Source: Paludibacter sp.
Lineage (GTDB): Bacteria > Bacteroidota > Bacteroidia > Bacteroidales > Paludibacteraceae
Direction of reading: 5' to 3'
Assembly (NCBI GenBank): GCA_028710895.1
Contig: JAQTTH010000020.1
Span: forward strand, 1 to 64,000
DNA: 64,000 bases
Shown one piece after another: positions 32,118 to 40,761 of this stretch. Position 1 is the first letter of the stretch. Every line of letters begins with the position of its first letter. A model generated the notes under the pieces. The model saw only the letters and a program-made list of their open reading frames with translations, was not told the DNA's origin and searched no databases. The translations under genes were made by a program, and so were the position numbers.

Positions 32118-32125
32118 TACTTTTG
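32118..32125 (+). promoter_or_regulatory. -7 promoter box of the riboswitch transcript
   Basis: TACTTTTG fits TAnnTTTG and lies about 10 bases before the start of the cobalamin riboswitch. No convincing -33 element was seen. Confidence 0.5.
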
Positions 32126-32132
32126 TATCCGA

Positions 32133-32408
32133 TTTTGGTATCGAAACAATCTTCATTGATTCGATAAAAAGGGAATCCGGTCAAATTCCGGAACAGTACC
32201 CGCTGCTGTAGACTCCTTCACTAATTGACAATTCACAATTGAGAATTGAAAATTATTGAAAAACGTTTTGAACAACACTTTTGCCACTGGGACCCCTCCC
32301 AGCCTCCCCGAAAGGGAGGAGCTGTTCCCTCCTTTGGAGGGATTGAGGGAGGTCCGGGAAGGCGTTCAAATACGGGAGTAAGTCAGAAGACCTGCCATTT
32401 TCAACAAC
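32133..32408 (+). promoter_or_regulatory. Cobalamin (B12) riboswitch
   Basis: The conserved Cbl aptamer blocks are in order: P1/P2-like TATCGAA/TTCGATA, GGGAATCCGGTCAAATTCCG, GAACAGTACCCGCTGCTGT, the GCCACTGGG box, GGGAAGGCG, and the B12 box AGTCAGAAGACCTGCC. Two variable helices carry long repeat-like inserts: an AATTGACAATTCACAATTGA block at 32221-32250 and a G/C-rich AGCCTCCCCGAAAGGGAGGA block at 32285-32355. A hairpin (TTTTTGCT ... AGCAAAAA, 32410-32440) follows and may be the expression platform. The controlled gene is the lipoprotein at 32574. Confidence 0.9.
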
Positions 32409-32573
32409 TATGTTTTTGCTTTCGGGATTAATAGCAAAAAGGGTCTGAACACTTCACTGTGTACATATTCTTCATTTTTTATTGTTGTCGGTAACGATAA
32501 TTACATCCTGTGCATTGACGTATTGTTTTTTGTTGAATCGTATTTATCTATTTAATAATCAATAATAAAAAAA

Positions 32574-33590: not shown

Positions 33591-33621
33591 TTTGTGAATC
33601 TGACAAAATGTACTACTTTTG
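33591..33621 (+). promoter_or_regulatory. Textbook promoter of the SRP RNA
   Basis: TTTG (33591-33594), 19 bp spacer, then TACTTTTG (33614-33621). This matches the Bacteroidetes -33/-7 consensus and spacing exactly and lies about 8 bases before the RNA 5' end. Confidence 0.8.
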
Positions 33622-33628
33622 TGCCCGG

Positions 33629-33721
33629 ATAAGTCCTACACGACCAGCTCCCTTTGAACTCCCCCAGGGCTTGACCGCAGCAAGGGTATTTGGTTGTAGC
33701 GGTGCGATGTAGGGGGCTTAT
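33629..33721 (+). ncRNA. ffs: Signal recognition particle RNA, bacterial small form
   Basis: The ~93-nt RNA closes with AAGTCCTACA (33631-33640) pairing to TGTAGGGGGCTT (33709-33720). The conserved SRP internal loop is present: TTTGAACTCCCCCAGGGC on the 5' side and CGCAGCAAGGGTA on the 3' side, the Ffh-binding region. The apical loop reads TTGACC in place of the usual CGGAAG. It targets membrane and secretory proteins with Ffh and FtsY. tRNA-Thr follows seven bases later, so both may come from one transcript ending at the 33805 terminator. Confidence 0.9.
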
Positions 33722-33727
33722 CCACTT

Positions 33728-37171: not shown

Positions 37172-37234
37172 AAGGTTTATGTAATTAGTAATTAATGCTT
37201 GATAATTATTAATTAGAAGGAGGTGAAAAAAAAT

Positions 37235-37649
37235 AGTAGGTCTGTAAGCCGGGTTCTGTACTCTGCCTGCGCAAAGTGTTTGTCATTTATCTCGAACAAA
37301 TGTCACCATTTGCCTCTAGCAATCTACCCCCCGACATCGGGCGAGCAACCCTACATGCGTCGGTATACATGATCTTGCAACCCATAAGGCGTACGGCATC
37401 CCGTGTTACCACGAAACCCGGTGAGCTCTTACCTCACCTTTTCACCCTTACTCCATGACCTAATCCGCCTCGCTTTGGGCGAGGCTCCCTCTCTAAAAGA
37501 GAAGGCTAAAGGAACTCGGAACTCGAAGCGGTTTTTCTCTGTTACGTTACTCTGCCTTCACAAACAGCTTCCCGTTAGGAAATATGGCGCTCTGCGTTGC
37601 CCGGACTTTCCTCCATTCCCGAGGGAAAAGCGACAAACCGACCTACTAT
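37235..37649 (-). ncRNA. rnpB: RNase P RNA, bacterial type A, with enlarged P12 region
   Basis: On the minus strand the RNA starts AGTAGGTCGG and ends GACCTACT. It contains the conserved GAGGAAAGTCCGGGC, CAGAGAAAAACCGC, GGTAAGGGTGAAAAGGTG-like and GGTAACACGGGATG-type blocks, and the 3' ACAGACCTACTA. It is the catalytic RNA that matures tRNA 5' ends. A block of about 100 nt in the P12 region (37440-37540) contains GCCTCGCCCAAAGCGAGGC and CTTCTCTTTTAGAGAGGG hairpins that look like dispersed repeats. A TATCTTTG box on the minus strand (37657-37664) precedes the 5' end. Confidence 0.93.
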
Positions 37650-39180: not shown

Positions 39181-40548
39181 TTATTGAACAAGGCCTGATA
39201 TTTTGCTAATGTTATCTGCAATAGCTTCATCCGACAAAGAGTAGTTCACCAAGTCATCGGCCAAATATTGATCGTAAGCAGCCATATCTACCAATCCATG
39301 ACCGGAAAGGTTGAACAAAATCGTTTTGCTTGTTCCTTCTTCCTTGCATTTCAATGCTTCGTTGATAGCCGCTGCAATAGCATGAGCCGATTCAGGAGCA
39401 GGAACAATACCTTCGGTCTGTGCAAATAGTACACCAGCCTTAAATGAATCCAGTTGTTCAATATCAACAGCTTCCATCAAATCGTCTTTCATCAACTGAC
39501 TAACAATAGTTCCTGCACCGTGATAACGAAGTCCACCGGCATGAATATGAGCAGGAGCAAAGTTATGACCAAGCGTAAACATAGGTAGAAGAGGAGTATA
39601 GCCTGCTTCATCACCAAAGTCATACTGGAATACACCGCGGGTAAGCTTTGGACAAGAAGCTGGTTCAGCAGCAATAAAACGGGTAGTTTTACCTTCTTTG
39701 ATATTATGACGCATAAATGGAAAAGCAATACCCGAGAAATTTGAACCTCCACCAAAACAACCGATAACTACATCAGGATATTCTCCTGCCATTTCCATTT
39801 GCTTTTCAGCTTCCAAACCAATTACTGTTTGGTGCAACGATACGTGATTCAACACACTACCAAGCGTATATTTACAGTTTGGTGTTTGCATTGCCAACTC
39901 GATAGCCTCCGAAATGGCAGTACCCAAACTTCCCTGATAATTAGGGTGATCTGTCAAAATCTGACGGCCGGCTTTGGTTGACATACTGGGTGATGGAATT
40001 ACCTGAGCACCCCATGTTTGCATCAACGAACGACGATAGGGCTTTTGTTCGTAGCTGATTTTCACCATATAAACAGCTAATTCCAGTCCAAACGTTTTGG
40101 CTGCGAACGATAAGGCAGTACCCCACTGACCGGCACCTGTTTCGGTTGTAATATTGGTTGTTCCTTCTTTTTTGCAATAGTATGCCTGAGCCAAGGCTGA
40201 GTTCAGTTTATGTGAACCTACAGGGCTTACACTTTCATTCTTGAAATAGATATGAGCAGGTGTATCAAGCGCTTTTTCCAGGTTATAAGCACGAACAAGT
40301 GGAGTGGGGCGGTATATCTTTAATTTCTCGCGTACTTCTTCAGGTATATCAATCCATGCATCAGTCTGATTTAATTCCTGCTCAGCTAAATCCTTAGCAA
40401 ACAAGGGAGTTAAATCATCTACAGTCAATGGTTGTTTCGTCCCCGGATGCAACATAGGCATTTGCTTTGTAACCAAATCGGCAACGATATTATACCATTT
40501 GGTTGGCAACTCTTTTTCCTCTAAAAGAAACTTTTTTGTTTTTTCCAT
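39181..40548 (-). CDS. trpB2: Tryptophan synthase beta chain, TrpB2 type
   Basis: The 455-residue PLP enzyme is longer than TrpB1 (about 400) and carries the TrpB2 N-terminal extension (residues 1-80). The PLP lysine is Lys114 in G-S-H-K-L-N-S-A, and the phosphate-binding C-F-G-G-G-S-N-F near 248-255 is present. TrpB2 makes tryptophan from indole and serine, often without a partner alpha subunit. No trpA or other trp genes lie here. The ~200-nt leader contains a Trp-rich leader peptide, an antiterminator and a terminator, so the gene is probably repressed by charged tRNA-Trp through attenuation. Confidence 0.93.
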   Translation of the reverse strand: MEKTKKFLLEEKELPTKWYNIVADLVTKQMPMLHPGTKQPLTVDDLTPLFAKDLAEQELNQTDAWIDIPEEVREKLKIYRPTPLVRAYNLEKALDTPAHIYFKNESVSPVGSHKLNSALAQAYYCKKEGTTNITTETGAGQWGTALSFAAKTFGLELAVYMVKISYEQKPYRRSLMQTWGAQVIPSPSMSTKAGRQILTDHPNYQGSLGTAISEAIELAMQTPNCKYTLGSVLNHVSLHQTVIGLEAEKQMEMAGEYPDVVIGCFGGGSNFSGIAFPFMRHNIKEGKTTRFIAAEPASCPKLTRGVFQYDFGDEAGYTPLLPMFTLGHNFAPAHIHAGGLRYHGAGTIVSQLMKDDLMEAVDIEQLDSFKAGVLFAQTEGIVPAPESAHAIAAAINEALKCKEEGTSKTILFNLSGHGLVDMAAYDQYLADDLVNYSLSDEAIADNISKISGLVQ

Positions 40549-40594: not shown

Positions 40595-40631
40595 TAAAAA
40601 GAAAGCCTGTCGTTAGGCTAAACAACAGGCT
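40595..40631 (-). terminator. Attenuator terminator in trpB2 leader
   Basis: On the minus strand an 11-bp stem (AGCCTGTTGTT with AACGACAGGCT, loop TAGCCT, one G-T pair) is followed by TTTCTTTTT. It lies 56 bases upstream of the trpB2 start, so it would stop transcripts before the gene. Confidence 0.8.
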
Positions 40632-40683
40632 GTTATGCTGAAATACGTTGCTAATTCATGCCACAAACAGAACCTTATTGTTT
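40620..40683 (-). promoter_or_regulatory. Antiterminator pairing in trpB2 leader
   Basis: AAACAATAAGG (40683-40673), immediately after the leader-peptide stop codon, can pair with CCTGTTGTTT (40629-40620) in the 5' arm of the terminator. Pairing there blocks terminator formation. A ribosome on the stop codon would cover the first element. Confidence 0.65.
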
Positions 40684-40734
40684 TCAAAGGTACCTATGCC
40701 AACGCCAATATAAAACAGAATCACTACGGTTCAT
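40684..40734 (-). CDS. trpL: Tryptophan-containing leader peptide of trpB2
   Basis: A 16-codon frame read on the minus strand gives MNRSDSVLYWRWHRYL, with two Trp codons at positions 10 and 12. It begins about 14 bases after the predicted transcription start and stops just before the antiterminator arm. E. coli TrpL is 14 residues with Trp at 10 and 11, so the geometry is closely similar. No ribosome binding site is obvious, as is common in Bacteroidetes. The peptide likely has no function beyond sensing Trp-tRNA supply. Confidence 0.75.
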   Translation of the reverse strand: MNRSDSVLYWRWHRYL

Positions 40735-40753
40735 ATAACTTGAATTATGTAGG

Positions 40754-40761
40754 CAAAGGTA
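40754..40761 (-). promoter_or_regulatory. -7 promoter box of trpB2 leader
   Basis: Minus-strand TACCTTTG; a start about 7 bases downstream (near 40747) places the leader peptide ATG at about +14 and trpB2 at about +200. Confidence 0.6.

Follow-up and report, generated by a model that had tools for sequence, protein, structure and literature searches.

A stand-alone trpB2 gene of Paludibacter sp. is very probably preceded by a ribosome-mediated, tryptophan-responsive transcription attenuator. The comparison of related leaders makes a convincing case that this is a real and recurrent switch of the classical type, a new example of a known mechanism. Its notable points are a lone salvage gene as the target, the apparent sufficiency of one Trp codon, and the frequent absence of the leader as a block. 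The elements of the leader were read from the sequence on the minus strand, at positions 40761 to 40595 of the window, i.e., of the whole 64,000-nucleotide stretch of DNA that was analysed. The order given in the preliminary description (a promoter box, a frame with Trp codons, AAACAATAAGG, CCTGTTGTTT within the terminator arm, and trpB2) was recovered in full:

40754..40761 (-), promoter box TACCTTTG of the TAnnTTTG type, for the leader transcript, from the sequence
40684..40734 (-), leader peptide frame MNRSDSVLYWRWHRYL, 16 codons, with ATG at 40734 and TGA ending at 40684
40705..40707 (-), first Trp codon TGG, peptide position 10, kept in each of the 26 aligned leaders
40699..40701 (-), second Trp codon TGG, peptide position 12, another residue in 5 of 64 leaders
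40687..40697 (-), strand 1 AUAGGUACCUU, whose predicted partner is AAGGUUCUGU, masking part of strand 2
40673..40683 (-), strand 2 AAACAATAAGG, 5' strand of the putative antiterminator, with compensatory changes relative to strand 3
40620..40629 (-), strand 3 CCTGTTGTTT, common to the antiterminator and the terminator, within the 5' arm of the latter
40604..40631 (-), terminator hairpin of 11 bp with a 6-nt loop, from terminator prediction and covariation
40595..40603 (-), U-rich tail TTTCTTTTT, from the sequence
39181..40548 (-), trpB2, encoding a TrpB-like enzyme (NF009057, 711 bits; TIGR01415, 605 bits)
40685..40692 (-), second TACCTTTG box, overlapping the leader stop codon, probably by chance

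Strand 1 was assigned from the minimum-energy fold of the leader portion preceding strand 3. In the window, AAACAATAAGG begins immediately past the leader stop codon, and the U-rich tail is separated from the trpB2 start by 46 nt. The likely genes flanking trpB2 on both sides lie on the opposite strand, and trpB2 is apparently a single-gene transcription unit.

Within the window alone, the pairing is not clearly above chance. The fold of 101 nt has a z-score of -1.56, and 14 of 200 shuffles were equally good; the 2:3 duplex is no better than that of shuffled strands (z -0.3), and 38 of 63 foreign partners paired with the window strand 2 as well as its own partner or better. Because the window by itself was not decisive, 217 trpB2 upstream regions were gathered, 137 from genomes of the genus and the family and 80 from named genomes; these two sets overlap. 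The trpB2 places left out of the sample include those of G048, G080, G054, G093, G151, G158, and G165, and three entries were dropped before counting (L002 and L003, which are not trpB2, and L027, which has no upstream sequence).

A strict detector, requiring a short frame with two nearby Trp codons followed by a strong terminator 25-160 nt downstream, was positive in 64 of the 217 upstream regions and in none of the controls (217 reverse complements and 651 dinucleotide shuffles). By source, these are 50 of 137 regions from genus and family genomes and 14 of 80 from named genomes; one of the 14, L175, is a false positive, with frames that fall within or overlap an upstream ORF of 84 residues. 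The 64 positives include five second copies (L101, L104, L107, L114, and L172). For the curated set, L175 and these five copies were removed, L103 and L108 were also kept out as copies, eight leaders missed by the strict rule were added (L008, L009, L012, L020, L026, L039, L042, and L153), and the identical cores of L072 and L074 were merged, giving a final set of 64 leaders. From it, 26 leaders of type A, in which strand 2 pairs with the terminator 5' arm, were picked by eye for alignment, and 16 leader clusters were made with a crude similarity cut. When those missed by the strict rule are included, leaders of the same design were found in 57 of the 137 genus and family regions, spread over 13 of the 33 genus labels drawn. 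Further leaders occur in records labelled Tannerella, Prevotellaceae, Petrimonas, Salinivirgaceae, and unclassified Bacteroidales or Bacteroidetes. Where a named record has a trpB2 protein identical to that of a genus member, its label is Paludibacter sp. or unclassified Bacteroidales, which places the genus in or near Paludibacter. The check proposed at the outset was to align related trpB2 leaders for a Trp frame and covarying stems; both recur, with compensatory changes. It is this comparison with relatives, not the window alone, that argues convincingly for the attenuator and is decisive.

The leader block of 15 codons is open in 14 of 14 genus leaders, and the other two reading frames of the same block contain stops in 2 and 9 of them. 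The fraction of single-base codon differences that are synonymous is 0.31 (128/408) against 0.18 expected, these differences being pairwise and hence not independent. All 26 aligned leaders carry the first Trp codon, a constancy that is partly built in, since the leaders were selected for having a Trp frame. A less biased search was made in 48 genus genomes with R1, a covariance model of the type-A trpB2 leaders. It gave strong matches (76-138 bits) at 15 places, of which 14 belong to its own training set and one is a leader in G012; 14 of the 15 have Trp, and the sole Trp-less match is that of G012, a genome with no detected trpB2. The short frame with regulatory Trp codons is conserved as a frame.

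The number of Trp codons varies among the 64 distinct leaders: one in 5, two in 27, three in 28, and four in 4. The second codon is replaced in L008, L009, L012, L020, and L153, and the five single-Trp leaders always keep the first. The frame with two Trp codons that had been described is present in the window, and most leaders have at least two, but two are not essential, and a single Trp codon seems to be enough. In the available text of a published model of attenuation, a single regulatory codon is a working but less favourable case (PMC1183508). The stop codon lies within AAACAATRAGG in 8 of 14 genus leaders, whose peptides end in KQ; it comes earlier in the window species and in L006, L020, and L026.

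Both alternative helices can be followed in the 26 aligned leaders. In the antiterminator (2:3), 92.7% of 260 cells are paired and three pairs show double changes; when the partners were slid by 1-3 columns, 33-56% of the cells were paired. In the terminator (3:4), 97.2% of 286 cells are paired, and five pairs show double changes. The altered 2:3 pairs include AAACGA/TCGTTT (L044 and L047), GGACAA/TTGTCC (L058), AGACAA/TTGTCT (L060), and GAACAA/TTGTTC (L117). In L044 and L047, a U-to-C change in strand 3 is matched by an A-to-G change in both strand 2 and strand 4 (columns 62, 135, and 151); a strand that serves two alternative helices calls for such double compensation. At the end of the 2:3 helix, either of the final two G-C pairs is disrupted in 7 of the 26 leaders, L026 has no strand-2 motif, and no excess of 2:3 pair types over shuffles was found (250 of 500 shuffles).

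Leaders also prefer their own partners. With one leader taken per cluster (16 in total), the pairing of strand 2 with its own strand 3 has an energy of -13.0 kcal/mol, versus -9.9 kcal/mol with swapped partners, and none of 2000 permutations reached the own value; for an extended strand 3, the values across the 16 clusters are -16.2 and -12.4, again with 0 of 2000 permutations. The mean foreign pairing is beaten by 11 of the 16 first cluster members when strand 3 is taken as first defined; extending it by six bases of the 3' arm raises this number to 15. A permutation over all 64 leaders ignores relatedness; the reliable one is that over the 16 clusters. Many leaders of other genera follow a second design, recognised by eye, in which strand 2 matches the terminator loop (GGAGG, GGTGGA, and GGGTT in strand 2 against CCTCC, TCCACC, and AACCC in the loop). 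The region of the 1:2 hairpin has a mean z-score of -1.82 in the 26 type-A leaders and -1.64 in the 38 others, the value for the window species being only -0.52.

As for the spacing, the distances from the first and the second UGG to the start of strand 2 are 24 and 18 nt in the window, and strand 2 begins 23-25 nt past the first Trp codon in 13 of 14 genus leaders. The footprint of a ribosome extends about 12-13 nt. With this spacing, strand 2 is expected to be free when a ribosome stalls at Trp and covered when it stands at the stop codon. The intrinsic terminator lies between the leader and the gene, and the covarying antiterminator 2:3 and the terminator 3:4 are mutually exclusive. The comparison of the leaders shows the Trp-bearing frame, the spacing, and these two helices.

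The TAnnTTTG sequence, which we take to be the -7 promoter box of the Bacteroidota type, was found exactly within 80 nt upstream of the leader start in 45 of 64 leaders, at a median of 29 nt, compared with 202 of 3200 shuffled 80-mers. In the 14 leader-bearing genus members, the distance from the box to the gene start is 204-222 nt (271 nt in L017). The promoter box that had been placed ahead of the peptide thus recurs at relatives' leaders.

From this arrangement we infer the start site, the stalling, the termination, and the direction of control as follows. RNA polymerase would start just past the TACCTTTG box at 40761, followed by a ribosome translating the 16-codon leader. A shortage of charged tRNA-Trp would stall this ribosome at UGG 40707 (or 40701) and leave strand 2 (AAACAAUAAGG) unpaired; strand 2 would then take strand 3 (CCUGUUGUUU) before strand 4 is synthesized, so that no terminator would form and trpB2 would be transcribed. 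A ribosome that reaches the stop codon would cover strand 2, and the terminator would form. With no ribosome on the leader, strand 2 would be partly masked by a local 1:2 hairpin, and termination would likewise be favoured. In the fold predicted without strand 4, the 2:3 helix forms (-15.7 kcal/mol). Once all strands have been made, however, the terminator remains the predicted minimum (-22.5 kcal/mol) even if a ribosome stands at the second Trp codon. Given that the finished RNA prefers the terminator, antitermination must be kinetic, with timing deciding the outcome. The E. coli-like attenuation proposed in the preliminary description is supported, as the order, the spacing, the frame, and both alternative helices recur with compensatory changes.

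Other readings of the leader have to be weighed against Trp-dependent attenuation. An arrest peptide similar to TnaC, in which free tryptophan stalls a specific nascent chain, would make excess Trp act in the opposite sense. The one constant Trp codon, with Arg next to it in many leaders, the single Trp in 5 of 64 leaders, and the tryptophanase-subfamily protein encoded in the genome are all compatible with such a peptide. Nevertheless, TnaC-type peptides are defined by conserved nascent-chain residues around one Trp, and these were not found among the trpB2 leaders: the residues preceding Trp vary, the first Trp stands anywhere from position 8 to position 15 in 63 of 64 leaders, and other leaders carry WWW, WWR, or WCW. 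In addition, strand 2, untranslated in the window species, accounts for the recurrent KQ end, and the leader contains an intrinsic terminator with an alternative helix. This makes an arrest peptide very improbable. We give the same small weight to a partial terminator that merely sets a constant level of expression, the short frame being a leftover. The leader is often absent, and two upstream regions (L028 and L031) retain a terminator without a frame, as judged by eye; this reading, however, leaves unexplained the open frames with Trp at a fixed spacing and the compensatory changes in both helices.

Still harder to credit is a bypass of the leader, in which the second TACCTTTG box (40692-40685) would be the real promoter and the peptide would not be made. 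This box is a perfect TAnnTTTG. However, the other 63 leaders have no counterpart at that place, and a box anywhere in their leader-to-gene interval was found only in L009 and L197, while the upstream box recurs in relatives. Moreover, a transcript starting about 7 nt past the second box would miss part or all of strand 2 and still meet the terminator. Finally, Trp control could operate as proposed and the leader RNA or peptide could also affect other messages in trans; such a role is described for Sinorhizobium peTrpL in the accessible part of that work (PMC7298713). Attenuation would release an RNA of about 150 nt, and the genome has two Trp attenuators; on the other side, the peptide is poorly conserved outside the Trp region. 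A trans activity is unlikely, if slightly less so than the preceding readings.

The Trp attenuator is unevenly distributed within the genus, being present in 14 of the 36 genus members examined and absent in 22. The two nearest relatives, whose trpB2 is 95% and 93% identical, have neither the frame nor the stems; a similar promoter region is followed by the gene start region, and the distance from box to start is 94-102 nt shorter, as if the peptide-terminator block had been removed. A lack of the frame and the stems in close relatives had been named in advance as evidence against the attenuator, and this holds for the nearest two but not for other members of the genus. Because the latter have the leader, the absence in the nearest two looks like loss. 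On a trpB2 tree of 102 proteins constructed by a quick method, the distribution of the leader needs at least 14 changes, 6 of which are forced by well-supported branches.

Several single loci can be mentioned in this respect. Upstream of trpB2, L028 and L031 have a terminator remnant with a CAGCCTGTYGTTT arm and no Trp frame, and can be read by eye as half-lost attenuators. L232 (G012:C416:1-450) is a leader of the trpB2 type in which the Trp codons are gone (MNLIDYLFSCRNKTIVIKQ) and the terminator is broken; it would represent decay in progress, although the loss of the gene from G012 is not proven, as the contig ends there. In three other regions, the usual place of the leader just upstream of trpB2 is taken by a tRNA-Ser (GCT) gene (L033:1307-1394, L034:1306-1393, and L037:1227-1316).

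A broader picture can be offered only tentatively, and we consider it possible rather than probable. Indole salvage by TrpB2 in Bacteroidales would have its own fast-evolving Trp attenuators, of type A, sharing the terminator 5' arm, and of type B, sharing the terminator loop, in which single Trp codons suffice. The peptide-terminator block would be a module lost from, or gained behind, the same promoter time and again, and sister species would switch between Trp-controlled and unregulated indole salvage.

Besides the window trpB2, the genome has one other tryptophan synthase beta gene. It heads a trpBEGDCFA operon on contig C22 (gene names read from ORFs), which is preceded by the Bacteroid-trp RNA RF01692 (54.6 bits, cut-off 49) with the leader MNTVLTVNKFWWWHLQIS. 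The window leader itself has no match to RF01692, either with E-values up to 5 or at the gathering cut-off of 49 bits, and no match to the Trp_leader family RF00513 was found in the window (gathering cut-off 41 bits); among the related leaders, L072 scores 24.6 bits against RF00513. A permissive Rfam search revealed no T-box or riboswitch at the leader, only RF02900 (an sRNA) with E=4. Elsewhere, the window holds a Cobalamin riboswitch (32119-32413), a Bacteroidales small SRP RNA (33620-33727), and an RNase P RNA (37229-37649). A search of the genome for TrpR and TRAP (PF01371 and PF02081) gave 0 matches, and the positive controls matched; this counts in favour of the ribosome-mediated attenuator. 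The tryptophanase-subfamily protein of the same genome (L243, G000:C27:259434-260555; NF009709, 569 bits) is below the cut-offs of the equivalog models for TnaA and tyrosine phenol-lyase; it is possibly a source of indole or another beta-eliminating lyase.

Across 200 family genomes, searched for RF01692 with stricter filters and E-values up to 0.1, three matches lie before trpB2, at 31-34 bits against the cut-off of 49. In turn, R1 also matches 22 trp-operon leaders among the 48 genus genomes at 30-44 bits (counted from the list). Given these weak matches, a remote common origin of the trpB2 leaders and Bacteroid-trp is possible. Ten further places were read, nine of them weaker R1 matches and one an RF01692 place; among them are two ilvD leaders and the RF01692 place, which has a Trp frame. 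The former, L239 (G009:C101:87300-89100) and L240 (G002:C1:159400-161200), have leaders rich in Ile, Val, and Leu (MIYEVVYTIIIIVVLLLVNKQR and MTSQRLYTILVLVVLLLVNNQR, respectively), followed by a terminator and a dihydroxy-acid dehydratase gene (NF009103, 803 bits in L240, cut-off 710), and are likely branched-chain attenuators within the genus. The latter, L242 (G021:C147:1-1200), is another match to Bacteroid-trp (49.3 bits), close to the end of a contig, and its Trp frame apparently starts with TTG. The remaining further R1 places were set aside as apparently ordinary terminators after genes or as unclear.

The trpB2 leader suggests that the conversion of indole to Trp is set by the charging of tRNA-Trp independently of the trp operon in the same cell. 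To the targets of Trp attenuation in Bacteroidota it would add a salvage gene that stands alone, in place of a biosynthetic operon. From cross-feeding with E. coli, a TrpB2 of Bacteroides (BT_RS23500) has been suggested to convert indole to Trp, as stated in the available text (PMC11535334); in light of this suggestion, the control of trpB2 could matter for how indole is exchanged in anaerobic communities. Close relatives with and without the leader behind a similar promoter provide a natural comparison.

Trp attenuation is a textbook mechanism, and the window leader resembles E. coli trpL (RF00513): a promoter, a short peptide with Trp near its end, a possible 1:2 helix, the 2:3 and 3:4 helices, an intrinsic terminator, and the gene follow one another, and the spacing is such that strand 2 would be left free by a ribosome that stalls at Trp. 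Unlike trpL, the leader appears to control a lone trpB2 and is not matched by RF00513, the genome has no TrpR match, and a single Trp codon may suffice. In Bacteroidota, the Bacteroid-trp RNA (RF01692) has been catalogued (Weinberg et al. 2010, PMC2864571) and, in the consulted portion of a later paper, is described as similar to the E. coli leader and located before the trp operon of Flavobacterium psychrophilum (PMC6414381). It shares the phylum and the logic with the window leader, whereas the gene and the strand sequences are different. Leader-peptide attenuators have also been described at amino-acid operons of F. psychrophilum (PMC9723704). These, too, combine a leader peptide with a structured 5' region in a member of Bacteroidota; however, their targets are biosynthetic operons, and trpB2 is not mentioned in the available parts of these two sources (PMC9723704, PMC6414381). 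In the literature found, as far as its accessible text extends, Trp attenuation in Bacteroidota has so far rested on computation.

The attenuation of a stand-alone trpB2 had been presented as undescribed in Bacteroidetes. In the texts retrieved by our literature searches, no report of a trpB2 attenuator in Bacteroidota was found, and in the main text of a survey of premature terminators (PMC2965389) the words Bacteroidetes, Bacteroides, tryptophan, and trpB are absent. The case is less novel than had been implied, given that Trp-leader attenuation in the phylum is already known from Bacteroid-trp. Judging by the accessible text, the nearest case in print is the candidate attenuator before trpB2A of Corynebacterium diphtheriae (PMC1262725). 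There, too, a second trpB copy is under predicted Trp attenuation; in this actinobacterium, however, trpB2 is followed by trpA in a biosynthetic operon, and that text does not state whether the gene is of the COG1350 type, whereas the leader in the window stands before a salvage gene that is apparently transcribed alone.
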